Of a stretch of DNA of 64,000 bases, positions 58,112 to 61,697 are shown one piece after another. Source of the stretch: Janibacter cremeus (lineage in GTDB: Bacteria > Actinomycetota > Actinomycetes > Actinomycetales > Dermatophilaceae); NCBI RefSeq assembly GCF_013409205.1, contig NZ_JACCAE010000001.1, positions 186,001 to 250,000 on the forward strand, given 5' to 3'. The notes beneath the pieces are model-generated. The model saw only the letters and a list, made by a program, of their open reading frames with translations. It was not told where the DNA came from and did not search any database. A program made the translations under genes and the position numbers. How positions within the stretch are numbered: position 1 is the first letter of the stretch; every line of letters begins with the position of its first letter.

Positions 58112-59305
58112 ATGCCTGACGTGAGCGAGACGACCCAGACCCGACCGGCACCCCTGTCGCTGCTCGTCCTCGGCCAGGGCAGCGACCCGCACTCCGAGCG
58201 AGGTGTCGAGTGCCCCGGTGACCTGCCGGAGCCCTCCGACCCCGACCTGGTCGCGCGTGCTCGCGCGGCCAAGGAGGCGCTGGGCGACCGCGTCTTCGTC
58301 CTCGGGCACCACTACCAGCGTGACGAGGTCATCGAGTTCACGGACACCACCGGTGACTCCTTCAAGCTGGCCAAGGAGGCAGCCGCTCGGCCGGACGCGC
58401 CGTACATCGTCTTCTGCGGCGTGCACTTCATGGCCGAGTCCGCCGACATCCTCACCAGCGACGAGCAGACGGTGGTGCTGCCCGACCTGGCAGCGGGCTG
58501 CTCCATGGCCGACATGGCCGCCCTGCACCAGGTCGAGGACTGCTGGGACGACCTCGTCGAGGCCGGCGTGGCGGAGTCGACTGTCCCGGTGACGTACATG
58601 AACTCCTCCGCGGCCATCAAGGCCTTCACCGGCCGCAACGGCGGCACCGTGTGCACCAGTTCCAACGCCGAGCGCGCCCTGACGTGGGCCTTCGACGAGG
58701 TCGGCGGCGTCGAGGGCGAGGGCAAGGTCCTCTTCCTGCCGGACCAGCACCTCGGCCGCAACACGTGGGCCCGGGACCTCGGTCGCGACCTCGACGACTG
58801 CGTCGTGTGGAACCCGCACCAGCCGATGGGTGGCCTGACTCTCGAGGAGATCAGGGACGCGCGGATGATCCTGTGGCGCGGCCACTGCTCGGTCCACGGA
58901 CGCTTCACCCCCGAGGCAGTCGAGACGTCGCGACGGGAGATCCCCGGCGTGAAGGTGATCGTCCATCCGGAGTGCCGCAACGAGGTCGTCGAGCTCGCGG
59001 ACGAGGTCGGCTCCACGGAGAAGATCATCACGGCCGTCTCGTCCGCCCCTGCGGGGACGAAGTGGGTCATCGGCACCGAGCTCAACCTCGTGCAGCGTCT
59101 GGCGAAGGAGCACCCGGAGCAGCAGATCAGCTTCCTGGAGAAGAACGTCTGCTACTGCTCGACGATGAACCGGATCGACCTGCCGCACCTCGTGTGGGCG
59201 CTCGAGTCACTCGTCGAGGGCCGCGTGGTCAACCCGATCGTCGTCGACGAGAACGTCGCCGATCAGGCCCGCACGGCGCTGGACCGGATGCTCGCCCTGC
59301 CCTGA
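58112..59305 (+). CDS. nadA: Quinolinate synthase A
   Basis: The roughly 397-aa 4Fe-4S enzyme condenses iminoaspartate with dihydroxyacetone phosphate for NAD synthesis. It has FVLGHHYQRDEV and GDSF-LAKEA near the start. The cluster cysteines are visible in FCGVHFMAES, in the central GGTVCTSSNAE region and in HPECRNEV or NVCYCSTMNR. Length is longer than the E. coli enzyme (347 aa) because of an N-terminal extension, as in actinobacteria. The ATG at 58112 or a GTG at 58121 could start it; a CAGCAT 7 nt before the GTG favours a leaderless GTG. No nadB or nadC follows in this window. Confidence 0.92.
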   Translation: MPDVSETTQTRPAPLSLLVLGQGSDPHSERGVECPGDLPEPSDPDLVARARAAKEALGDRVFVLGHHYQRDEVIEFTDTTGDSFKLAKEAAARPDAPYIVFCGVHFMAESADILTSDEQTVVLPDLAAGCSMADMAALHQVEDCWDDLVEAGVAESTVPVTYMNSSAAIKAFTGRNGGTVCTSSNAERALTWAFDEVGGVEGEGKVLFLPDQHLGRNTWARDLGRDLDDCVVWNPHQPMGGLTLEEIRDARMILWRGHCSVHGRFTPEAVETSRREIPGVKVIVHPECRNEVVELADEVGSTEKIITAVSSAPAGTKWVIGTELNLVQRLAKEHPEQQISFLEKNVCYCSTMNRIDLPHLVWALESLVEGRVVNPIVVDENVADQARTALDRMLALP

Positions 59306-59317
59306 GCCCCCTCACTC

Positions 59318-59353
59318 GGTGGAGGTGTCCCCGCCGACGATTCCCCGGCGAGT
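59318..59353 (+). repeat. 36-bp repeat, copy 1 (forward)
   Basis: It starts GGTGGAGGT and ends CCGGCGAGT, with a variable 18-bp centre. It is the outer left copy of four that bracket the DUF559 gene, and lies 13 nt after the nadA stop. Confidence 0.85.
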
Positions 59354-59382
59354 CTGCGTCCACTCGGCGCCGCCCAATCACC

Positions 59383-59418
59383 GGTGGAGGTAAACGCGCG
59401 GAGGAAACGCCGGCGAGT
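59383..59418 (+). repeat. 36-bp repeat, copy 2 (forward)
   Basis: It has the same 9-bp ends as copy 1, with centre AAACGCGCGGAGGAAACG. It lies 65 bp after copy 1 and ends 6 nt before the DUF559 stop codon. Confidence 0.88.
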
Positions 59419-59424
59419 TCGAGG

Positions 59425-60360
59425 TCAACCGACGGGCTGGGCGCCCACGGTCAGCCGAGCATGAGCGGTCACGGCCTGCGTCATGAACTGCTCCTCTGCG
59501 ATCCGCAGCCCGAATAGGTCGATGCGCAGGACGGTGTCCCCGCCGAGGGCCACTGCGTTCTGCCGGAGGTTGTCGTCCATGACCGACAGTCCCCACCGGT
59601 GTCCCGCGCCGTCGATCTCCACGACGAGGCCGCAGGGCCACCGCACATCGAGGTACACGCGCCCGCGCCGACCTTGTCGGACCACCTGACGGCTGGGCTC
59701 CGGCAGTCCGTACCGTCGGCACAGCTCCGCGAAGTCGAGCTCCCCGACCGCTTGGGCACCGAGGGCGATGTCCGCTGCCACCCGAGCGACGAAGGCTCGA
59801 CGGGTCCGGCCGCGCACCAGCTCCGCCGCCTTGAGGATCGCTGACCCGGTGCACAGTCTCTGCTGCACCGGCATGACCATGACGAGGGCCGCCTGCCGAT
59901 CGGAGACGGCCCAGTGGGCTGCACGGACCGCGGCCGGGGCGGGGCGAACGGCCGGGAGCTCGCCGGGCCCGAGAGTCTCGATCGGACGCGAACGGACCTT
60001 GTGCACGACAACGCCCTCGACCCGGTGGATCCGCGCGGTGTGCGGGACCGACACGTGGATGGCATCGTCACTCCACCTCCGGAGACCCGCATGCTGCAGG
60101 GCTGTCGGCCCGTCGAGCGCGGCGATGCGCTGGCCGACCTCCCACACCGCACGCCACCGTCGGGCCAGCTCGCCCAGCTCGCCGGTGTGGGTGGCGATGG
60201 TCCAACGACCGTGGGCGACCCATCGGCGCTGGCGCAGCTGCAGACGCACCTCGTTGCGGTCGATACCGAGATCGCGGAGCCGTCGGCGGCTGATGACGCC
60301 CCCGTAGGCGACCGCTGCGGCCGCGGCTCGGTCGTGGATTCCCAGTATTCGCCTGTCCAT
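59425..60360 (-). CDS. DUF559 (Vsr/PD-(D/E)XK-like) protein with AbiEi-like N-terminus
   Basis: The 311-aa protein has an N-terminal helix-turn-helix-like region (about 1-60: VISRRRLRDLGIDRNEVRL, then RRWVAHGRW) as in type IV antitoxin AbiEi proteins. A middle strand region is followed by a C-terminal DUF559 nuclease-like domain (about 225-300) with PD-(D/E)XK-type acidic residues in YLDVRW and VVEIDGAGHRWG. The activity is unproven: DUF559 resembles very short patch repair endonucleases. The ATG at 60360 is preceded by 145 bp with a hairpin and a 36-bp repeat. It is bracketed by four 36-bp repeats in inverted orientation, two on each side, so the gene and repeats may form one mobile unit. 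Confidence 0.8.
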   Translation of the reverse strand: MDRRILGIHDRAAAAAVAYGGVISRRRLRDLGIDRNEVRLQLRQRRWVAHGRWTIATHTGELGELARRWRAVWEVGQRIAALDGPTALQHAGLRRWSDDAIHVSVPHTARIHRVEGVVVHKVRSRPIETLGPGELPAVRPAPAAVRAAHWAVSDRQAALVMVMPVQQRLCTGSAILKAAELVRGRTRRAFVARVAADIALGAQAVGELDFAELCRRYGLPEPSRQVVRQGRRGRVYLDVRWPCGLVVEIDGAGHRWGLSVMDDNLRQNAVALGGDTVLRIDLFGLRIAEEQFMTQAVTAHARLTVGAQPVG

Positions 60361-60478
60361 CGCCCCATCCCACCGACGGGACCGAGCCGACGAAAGGGAC
60401 CGCGCCAGGCTGTGGACACGGACATCCCCGGCACCGAGGGTGGGGATGCGCGTGTGGACGACAACCGAACGGTCTCCC

Positions 60479-60505
60479 CCCCTTCGCCCCCCTCGGGGGA
60501 AGGGG
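60479..60505. other. Hairpin directly beside repeat copy 3
   Basis: CCCCTT (60479-60484) and a run of five C pair with five G and AAGGGG (60500-60505), giving a stem of 11 bp with a 2-nt bulge. It ends exactly where the repeat begins and lies upstream of the DUF559 gene, in its leader or promoter. Confidence 0.5.
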
Positions 60506-60541
60506 ACTCGCCGGCGACAGACCCGCGCGTTCACCTCCACC
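60506..60541 (-). repeat. 36-bp repeat, copy 3 (inverted)
   Basis: On the minus strand it starts GGTGGAGGT and ends CCGGCGAGT with centre GAACGCGCGGGTCTGTCG. It matches copy 2 at 29 of 36 positions. Confidence 0.88.
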
Positions 60542-60569
60542 AGGAGATGGGCCTCGCGGTTGGATGCCG

Positions 60570-60605
60570 ACTCGCCCGTGAGTCGTCGGCGCGTTCACCT
60601 CCACC
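60570..60605 (-). repeat. 36-bp repeat, copy 4 (inverted)
   Basis: On the minus strand it starts GGTGGAGGT and ends CGGGCGAGT with centre GAACGCGCCGACGACTCA, 64 bp from copy 3. A GC hairpin (60611-60627) follows. Confidence 0.85.
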
Positions 60606-60610
60606 CAGCA

Positions 60611-60627
60611 GGGGCGGCGCCCGCCCC
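60611..60627 (-). terminator. Terminator hairpin after the GST-like gene
   Basis: GGGGCGG (60611-60617) and CCGCCCC (60621-60627) with loop CGC lie 19 nt downstream of the GST-like stop codon, beside repeat copy 4. Confidence 0.6.
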
Positions 60628-60646
60628 GTCCGCGTGCACCTCACGG

Positions 60647-61684
60647 TCAGCGCGTGCGGACCATTCCGCTCTCGTCGAGCAGCGGGTTGTGCTCGGCGGG
60701 CACGCGCTCGCCCTCGCTCGGCGCACCGGGCGCGGTGCCATTGCCGAAGGGGGATCCGCCCAGGCGCTCGCGGCCGTGCGGCTCGAGCCAGTTCGAGTAG
60801 TCGGGCCCGGCGGGGACGATCCCGGTGGGATTGATGTCCAGGTGGACCTCGTAGTAGTGGCTCTTGATGTGGGTGAAGTCGGTGGTGTCGCCGAAGCCGG
60901 GCGTGGTGAAGAGGTCACGGGCGTAGGCCCACAGCACCGGCATCTCGCTCAGCTTGGAGCGGTTGACCTTGAAGTGCCCGTGGTAGACCGCGTCGAAGCG
61001 CGCGAGCGTGGTGAACAGGCGCACGTCGGCCTCGGTGATGTGGTCGCCCATCAGGTAGCGCCGGGTGGACAGGCGCTCCTCGAGCCAGTCCATGGCCGTC
61101 CAGAGCCGGTCGTAAGCGGCCTCGTAGGCCGCCTGGTCGCCGGAGAAGCCGCAGCGGTACACGCCGTTGTTGATCTCGGTGTACACGCGCTCGTTGACTG
61201 CCTCCATCTCCTCGCGCAGATCCTCGGGCCACAGGTCCGGTGCACCCTCGCGCTGGTACTCGCGCCACTGCGTCGAGAGGTCGAGGGTGATCTGCGGGAA
61301 GTTGTTGGTCACGACCTCGCCGGAGGGCACGTCGACGAGCGCCGGGACGGTGATCCCCCTGGAGTAGTCGGGGAAACGCGCGAGGTAGGCGTCCTTGATC
61401 CGCGGGATGCCCAGGACCGGATCGAGGTGCCCCTCGTCCAGGTCGAAGGTCCAGCTGTCGGCGTCGTGGGTCGGCCCGGTGACGCCCATGGAGATGACGT
61501 CCTCGAGACCGAGCAGACGCCGGACGATGATCGTGCGGTTGGCCCACGGGCATGCCCGGGAGACCACGAGGCGGTACCGCCCCGGCTCGACGGGCCACTC
61601 GCCGGTGCCGTCGGAGGTGATCCGGTCCTCGATGTAGGTCGTGTCGCGCTGGAATTCCTTGTCCACGTACGTGCCTTGCGTCAT
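60647..61684 (-). CDS. Glutathionyl-hydroquinone reductase-like (Xi-class GST fold) protein
   Basis: The 345-aa protein has a thioredoxin-fold N-terminal domain with active-site motif ACPWANR near residue 47 and TVPALVDVPSGEVVTNNFPQI. A helical C-terminal domain follows (RYLMGDHITEADVRLFTTLARFDAVYHGHFK). This pattern is that of Xi-class transferases that reduce thiol-quinone adducts. Actinobacteria make mycothiol, not glutathione, so the thiol partner is probably mycothiol (inference). The ATG at 61684 follows TACTGT by 7 nt, indicating a leaderless mRNA. It diverges from the dehydrogenase gene. Confidence 0.85.
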   Translation of the reverse strand: MTQGTYVDKEFQRDTTYIEDRITSDGTGEWPVEPGRYRLVVSRACPWANRTIIVRRLLGLEDVISMGVTGPTHDADSWTFDLDEGHLDPVLGIPRIKDAYLARFPDYSRGITVPALVDVPSGEVVTNNFPQITLDLSTQWREYQREGAPDLWPEDLREEMEAVNERVYTEINNGVYRCGFSGDQAAYEAAYDRLWTAMDWLEERLSTRRYLMGDHITEADVRLFTTLARFDAVYHGHFKVNRSKLSEMPVLWAYARDLFTTPGFGDTTDFTHIKSHYYEVHLDINPTGIVPAGPDYSNWLEPHGRERLGGSPFGNGTAPGAPSEGERVPAEHNPLLDESGMVRTR

Positions 61685-61691
61685 GACCAGC

Positions 61692-61697
61692 ACAGTA
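61692..61697 (-). promoter_or_regulatory. -10 box TACTGT for the GST-like gene
   Basis: TACTGT on the minus strand is 7 nt before the ATG at 61684. A 9-bp palindrome AGTTGAACT lies just upstream, near the plus-strand TATACT box at 61707-61712 that may serve the divergent gene. Confidence 0.5.

Follow-up and report, generated by a model that had tools for sequence, protein, structure and literature searches.

The window analysed here, a stretch of 64,000 nucleotides from Janibacter cremeus (genome G000; 3.31 Mb, single contig), carries between nadA and a GST-like gene a gene for a nuclease-like protein, bracketed by two pairs of short palindromes in opposite orientations (Table 1). The initial annotation of this locus reported four 36-bp repeats, and their positions and strands hold, as do on recounting the 29 of 36 identities between copies 2 and 3 and the pair spacings of 65 and 64 bp; the shared 9-bp ends are exact in three copies, copy 4 carrying one mismatch. 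The window contains four matches to the 36-mer, against a mean of 0.32 in dinucleotide shuffles (largest 2; none of 100 reaching four). The true unit, however, is an imperfect palindrome of 47 bp, and the 36-mer makes up its better-conserved left part. This form, hereafter type 1, is clearest at G000:2954853-2954899 and 2953174-2953220. The window copies are among the less symmetric, with symmetry at 22-28 of 46 positions compared with 28-38 at six other sites in the same genome, and copy B, taken as a 47-mer, runs into the stop codon of the nuclease-like gene. Alignments of orthologues begin at the very ATG given in the table. Neither a sigma-70-like promoter nor a T-tract terminator was found in 59200-60700, and an Rfam search of 58900-61000 gave no match.

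Table 1. Features of the palindrome-bracketed nuclease locus in window coordinates.
Feature	Position	Strand	Remarks
nadA (quinolinate synthase), flanking	58202..59305	+	TIGR00550 5.9e-95; PF02445 1.7e-97; start unrefined
Palindrome copy A	59318..59364	+	47 bp; contains 36-mer 59318-59353; downstream of nuclease-like gene; matched by R1
Palindrome copy B	59383..59429	+	contains 36-mer 59383-59418; 65 bp from A; weakest symmetry
Nuclease-like gene	59425..60360	-	311 aa; ATG 60360; stop 59425-59427
EDxHD/Vsr-like nuclease domain	59443..59763	-	residues 200-306
AbiEi-antitoxin-like part (winged helix + antitoxin-like domain)	59764..60360	-	residues 1-199
Palindrome copy C	60495..60541	-	contains 36-mer 60506-60541; upstream of nuclease-like gene
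Palindrome copy D	60559..60605	-	contains 36-mer 60570-60605; upstream of gene; 64 bp from C; matched by R1
GST-like gene, flanking	60647..61693	-	PF13410 6.2e-17

A family of bracketed nuclease-like genes

The N-terminal part of the protein fits the AbiEi fold, a winged helix together with the antitoxin C-terminal fold, and its catalytic domain fits the EDxHD/Vsr-like fold. Residues E207, D209, D238, E248, H254 and D263 are conserved in 40/40 homologues (40 of 42 sequences were used, L056 and L058 being excluded and L057 also omitted from a further step), and dN/dS values of 0.12-0.20 show that the gene is under purifying selection. The window protein is not matched by Pfam DUF559, which matches 19 of the 40 homologues at E≤0.1 (best 5.6e-4), and Pfam and NCBIfam offer no usable name for it, the sole NCBIfam row being ISAon1_upstream at E 0.14. 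At the window locus, the one checked for this, nadA and the GST-like gene are the neighbours and no AbiEii toxin gene is adjacent.

G000 holds two further copies of the gene, 54 and 50% identical to that of the window, and none of the near-identical ones that mark a classical insertion sequence. The three genes are diverged paralogues, each with its own palindrome, and not recent transpositions: L015 lies between copies of a 48-bp palindrome (type 2, a pattern applied to this locus only), two on one side and one on the other, L016 lies between copies of a 42-bp palindrome (type 3), and the palindromes of the three paralogues differ from one another.

Bracketing extends well beyond this genome. 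A scan of genome contigs returned 39 homologues, mostly from Janibacter, other Intrasporangiaceae and related genera. At 37 of 41 loci (38 homologues and the three G000 copies, L057 being excluded because it has no downstream DNA), a repeat common to the upstream and downstream 500 bp scores above 19.4, the value that marks the 95th percentile for 1640 mismatched pairs. With L057 and L036 set aside for short flanks, 35 of the remaining 37 of the 39 homologue loci reach a flank-repeat score of at least 20, as does 1 of 204 ordinary intervals of 880 bp taken from these loci; the initial annotation had looked to nuclease genes flanked in the same way, and such genes exist. Of 246 sampled Actinomycetes genomes, 121 yielded homologues in a profile search, and among the 29 best-scoring other loci (L221 and L222 of this class-wide set share the flanks of L038 and L042), 27 exceed the control 95th percentile. 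Compared with random windows of those loci, the flank repeats are self-complementary at p≤0.05 in 35/41 loci of the first set and 23/29 of the second (at p≤0.01, in 25 and 8).

Protein and palindrome diverge together. Palindromes are common to both members (score at least 20) in 5/5 pairs with at least 80% protein identity, 9/12 at 70-80%, 6/48 at 60-70% and 2/565 below 60%, and over the 36 loci with stop-free matches and a flank score of at least 20, to which the pairing test was confined, the Mantel rho between the two similarities is 0.35, a value that 0/2000 permutations attained. This trend is one of co-divergence and is not proof of recognition, as relatedness alone would give the same.

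Orientation is readable only in the asymmetric type 1, in which gene-proximal copies point inward. Type-1 copies also form doublets: 22 of 32 distinct neighbouring pairs less than 300 bp apart are spaced 64-66 bp (duplicate locus L080, equal to L021, was removed; with it the figure is 23 of 35). In 25 hand-picked palindromes of one 45-nt form from the TTCGANGTN{18,32}ACNTCGAA search described below (palindromes of other length and three near copies from G018 being set aside, and the outer 8 bases being fixed by the search pattern), the inner arms covary at 0.341, against 0.130 in shuffles (0/500) and above all slid controls. Of six copies tested as single-stranded DNA, five fold well (z -2.6 to -9.1), the exception being window copy D (z -0.9). 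Some palindrome families probably adopt a hairpin or cruciform, and type 1 may do so.

Several further observations concern these repeats and their genes. A degraded nuclease relative, L100 (G009:2248306-2248938), has three in-frame stops and a flank repeat score of 13.4, which is at chance level. In the genome of L033, two TTCGAGGT-type palindromes (G025:C7:60062 and 61164) lie 1.1 kb apart; L033's own locus bears another palindrome, and the distance between these two hints that they enclose a second gene. Contig C64 of G017 (1861-2345) carries a tandem array of eight palindromes at exact 63-bp steps. Lastly, CCCCCTTCG occurs 22 times in the window (e.g., at 1903, 12679, 37524 and 60478) against 1.07 expected, a number reached by 0/100 shuffles, and frequently adjoins palindromes in related genomes too.

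Dispersed palindromes and a stationary gene

The type-1 palindrome is present in G000 in four copies at the gene and in at least six elsewhere (620570, 799387, 1260715, 1954696, 2953174 and 2954853). A scan of this genome at 3 mismatches was noisy (21 matches; reversed control 12), and we relied on the rows with at most 2 mismatches and on R1, a covariance model of 26 type-1 copies. R1 was trained on copies from G000, G003, G007, G008, G011 and G014, not G009, and run on 16 genus genomes with strand matches counted at E≤0.01; one palindrome may count on both strands and 150 candidates were scored per genome, so that high values are lower bounds. In genomes with a close orthologue of the window gene (at least about 79% identity), the matches number 24 in G000, 41 in G003, 79 in G008, at least 117 in G009, at least 108 in G011 and 36 in G014. 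Those without one have 10 (G001), 8 (G002), 7 (G004), 21 (G005), 6 (G007), 23 (G013), 6 (G015) and 0 (G006, G010 and G012); G007 and G015 hold 64-66% relatives of the gene elsewhere in the genome. The six gene-bearing genomes (24-117) thus exceed the ten gene-less ones (0-23), with a Mann-Whitney p of 6.6e-4 that ignores kinship.

For type 3, for which we counted hand-picked 42-nt forms from the full list, genomes with the gene contain 3 (G000), 6 (G003), 4 (G005), 5 (G009) and 10 (G012) copies, whereas of the gene-less genomes five contain 1-4 and the other six none (gene versus count, p 0.003). This association is weaker than that of type 1, and all three G000 copies lie close to their gene.

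Outside the genus, where the counts include gene-flanking copies, two patterns were followed. Nine of 18 genomes searched for TTCGANGTN{18,32}ACNTCGAA had been picked because their locus carries ends of approximately this form; they contain 19 (genome of L026), 36 (L028), 14 (L029), 2 (L032), 3 (L034), 3 (L035), 12 (L036), 0 (L039) and 27 (L043) sites. The nine others contain 5 (L033), 1 (L049) and, in seven cases, 0, and the reversed control gave 0/18. Of 22 genomes searched for CGTCATNCGN{18,34}CGNATGACG, the 16 of family f32 all have a homologue and 12 of them hold 1-34 sites, while the six of other families hold none in five cases and one in G144 (control: 1 in G199, otherwise 0). Seven of 46 palindrome sites from 25 fetched loci of G000 and G009 overlap open reading frames called coding by codon composition, in DNA of which 83% is so called.

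Orthologous sites give the same contrast. Nine intergenic sites beside conserved genes (including lepA and GAPDH), five indexed on G009 and four on G000, were compared in the genomes where the flank was listed, a palindrome being accepted at 31/47 or better within 700 bp; G014 at the gap site and G006 at s620 were excluded as short. A palindrome is present in 19/37 gene-bearing cases, the index genome aside, against 2/78 gene-less cases (Fisher p 1.0e-9, the cases not being independent by descent). In G012, copies identical at 42/42 positions to the gene-flanking 42-mers (2327940 and 2329035) lie at 769771 and 2990488. The flanks of these copies are unrelated and identity ends, by eye, at the palindrome edge, which favours the view that what is copied is the palindrome itself. 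At 1702487 of the same genome lies a palindrome combining arms of both gene-flanking 42-mers, and copy number at one site can also vary through a tandem block.

The gene, in contrast to its palindromes, stays in place. It adjoins nadA in G000, G003, G008, G009, G011 and G014, which are all the close-orthologue carriers among the 16 genus genomes. The initial annotation regarded gene and repeats as a compact mobile or self-targeting unit, and held that the idea of mobility would fail if all relatives carried the locus at the same site with the same repeats; as all six close orthologues share one site, the gene is by this criterion not the moving part, and it is the palindromes that move. The gene and nadA have opposite orientations in G000, G008 and the G005 remnant described below and parallel ones in G003, G009, G011 and G014, so the cassette has been inverted at least once. 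A strain lacking the unit between nadA and the GST-like gene, also sought as a sign of mobility, does exist in G013, where only 32 bp separate the aligned nadA and GST-like parts. However, the related G005 retains a remnant at the nadA site, where 72 C-terminal residues (90% identical) survive together with the palindromes downstream of the gene, which suggests that the cassette was lost in G013 rather than newly arrived elsewhere. The empty G013 interval also bears on homing, in which a gene invades and so shields the site that its product cleaves; here too the G005 remnant suggests loss. The DNA next to nadA, read over as much as 2.6 kb, shows no trace of the gene in G001, G004, G006, G007, G010, G012 and G015. 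In five of the cassette-less genomes, G001, G004, G007, G010 and G015 (L209, L156, L159, L155 and L158), about 830-1100 bp of other DNA lies between nadA and the GST-like gene; it falls into two main sequence groups, probably other genes.

The near-identical pair L087 and L091 of G005 resembles a transposition but is part of a duplication of at least 13.3 kb. In this duplication, L122:1-13303 equals L123:79-13381 at 99.95% identity, with a type-2 cassette inside; its right edge falls within a palindrome next to an IS-like end. An IS-like element with ends like TGAAGGGACATGTC (L122:11945-13275) is apparently inserted in a type-2 palindrome, and TGAAGGGACATGTC-like ends also occur among type-1 palindromes in L021 (linker between 3690 and 3813).

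Proposed mechanism and alternatives

We consider it probable that the nuclease-like protein and its palindromes form a pair that acts in the manner of repetitive extragenic palindromes (REPs) and their REP-associated tyrosine transposases (RAYTs), with an unrelated enzyme that would bind and cleave its own palindromes and thereby drive their copying. The data show that the palindromes bracket the gene, are specific to its lineage, are dispersed and go with the presence of the gene, and that the protein matches the folds named above, keeps its conserved residues and is under purifying selection; the steps that follow are inferred. In the first step, the AbiEi-derived N-terminal part would bind the conserved outer arms of a lineage-specific 42-48 bp palindrome. 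The accessible text of PMC3985639 describes AbiEi binding to 11-bp arms 27 bp apart, a span of 49 bp, and it is because this span fits the palindromes that their reading is assigned to the N-terminal part. The fused EDxHD/Vsr-like domain would then cut the palindrome, present as a duplex, cruciform or hairpin, or the DNA close by, and when the cut end is repaired or replicated the palindrome may be copied into intergenic sites elsewhere. The gene would remain at one inherited site between inverted palindromes, where it may flip; it may also be lost, after which the palindromes would decay. We lean, if only slightly, towards the broader view of a class-wide actinobacterial element, in which an antitoxin-derived reader joined to a homing-endonuclease-like nuclease spreads its own 42-48 bp palindromes; such an element would have evolved independently of REP/RAYT, each nuclease lineage having a palindrome code of its own.

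A number of results weigh against the copying of palindromes by the nuclease. The third G000 paralogue, L036 (131 bp downstream only), L037 and L056 fall below the mismatched-pair cut-off, 6/41 and 6/29 flank repeats are not clearly palindromic, and the covariation of type-1 arms does not rise above shuffles. All association and dispersal statistics ignore phylogeny, and gene-bearing genomes supplied part of the R1 training set. G000 with its 24 matches stands scarcely above the gene-less relatives G013 (23) and G005 (21), with 10 in G001. Several genomes that lack the type-3 gene carry type-3 palindromes (4 in G006, 2 in G007, 3 in G011, 4 in G013 and 1 in G014). With TTCGANGTN{18,32}ACNTCGAA, dispersal was not seen in G023, and of the three sites in G020 (the genome of L034) two flank the gene and the third is apparently unrelated, so that dispersal is absent there; CGTCATNCGN{18,34}CGNATGACG has no site in the f32 genomes G125, G059, G148 and G270. 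At orthologous sites, the gene-bearing G000 has 0 palindromes at the five G009-indexed positions, gene-less G013 and G005 supply the two scripted hits with their copies at s799, and s620 holds a copy in G005, outside the script's window, and a relic in G013. Neither a clean insertion junction nor a target-site duplication could be identified, the flanking intergenic DNA being too diverged; alignments of close relatives at s2111 and s2123 likewise gave no clean junction.

Some of these results would be expected if the palindromes were host elements, such as terminators or chromosome-structure sites, spread by recombination or slippage, with the protein binding or trimming them without driving their spread. 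Their intergenic location and hairpin folding, the tandem block that changes copy number at one site, the arm hybrid at G012 1702487 and the lack of copies in G000 at sites occupied in other gene-bearing genomes agree with such an origin. We nevertheless regard it as unlikely, as the palindrome differs by paralogue and lineage, its abundance tracks the gene lineage, and a T-tract terminator is absent at the window locus. It also seems improbable that the palindromes are operators through which the AbiEi-like protein represses its own gene, the dispersed copies being its other regulatory sites and nothing being mobile. AbiEi autorepresses its operon via inverted repeats, according to the accessible text of PMC3985639, and the matched pair includes an upstream copy at most loci; yet matching copies lie downstream of the gene too, many dispersed copies sit at gene ends or between converging genes (orientations read off rather than formally counted), identical copies have unrelated flanks, and R1 matches range from 0 to 117 within a single genus. 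A compact transposon of gene and repeats moving as a whole is largely refuted and now very improbable: the inverted repeats, the empty interval in G013, the varying cassette orientation between species and the 64-66% relatives located elsewhere in G007 and G015 would suit it, but the single site in all six close-orthologue genomes, the G005 remnant, the lack of near-identical gene copies in G000 and the confinement of the sole near-identical pair (G005) to the duplication of at least 13.3 kb stand against it.

The comparison with REP/RAYT elements drawn by the initial annotation finds support as an analogy, the gene being flanked by palindromes of its own that are dispersed and track its lineage, but the enzyme is not a RAYT. 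In the accessible parts of PMC2817692, RAYTs are always flanked by two inverted REPs with which they co-evolve, REP abundance tracks the RAYT gene, and RAYT orthologues keep their position. These parts, with those of PMC8049555, show the same picture for REP or REPIN palindromes and RAYTs (REPtrons) as found here: own inverted palindromes around the gene, dispersed intergenic copies and doublets, abundance that tracks the gene, repeats that change with the protein, and orthologues that keep their place. Unlike those systems, the enzyme here is an AbiEi-like protein with an EDxHD/Vsr-like nuclease, and the hosts are actinobacteria. Y1_Tnp (PF01797, HUH) matches 0/16 genus genomes at E≤0.001 and 5/14 control genomes, and since the Y1 tyrosine transposase is without a match in the genus genomes, this is not a RAYT system. 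The GTAG end tag is absent from the type-1 consensus, the family examined for it.

The nuclease also differs from its own relatives. Unlike the EDxHD homing endonuclease I-Bth0305I and DUF559/Vsr-like nucleases, it is encoded by a free-standing intergenic gene, has an AbiEi-like part and is accompanied by dispersed palindromes; unlike the AbiEi antitoxin and Rv2827c, it carries a fused nuclease domain and lies beside nadA and a GST-like gene. The CGTC-tagged REP families, which the accessible text of PMC3733652 presents as being without a dedicated transposase, are likewise short dispersed palindromes, whereas the palindromes described here enclose the gene of a candidate enzyme.

Our search of the open-access literature, with preprints and most subscription papers outside its scope, found no published account of this nuclease-palindrome association. 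To our knowledge, RAYT is the only dedicated enzyme for REP-like palindromes. The system would be of a new kind if defined by its enzyme, which is unrelated to RAYT, and REP-like if defined by behaviour alone. If the proposed mechanism is true, partnerships between nucleases and palindromes would have arisen more than once, orphan repeats would gain a candidate mobiliser, and dozens of natural nuclease/target pairs would be at hand for reading recognition.
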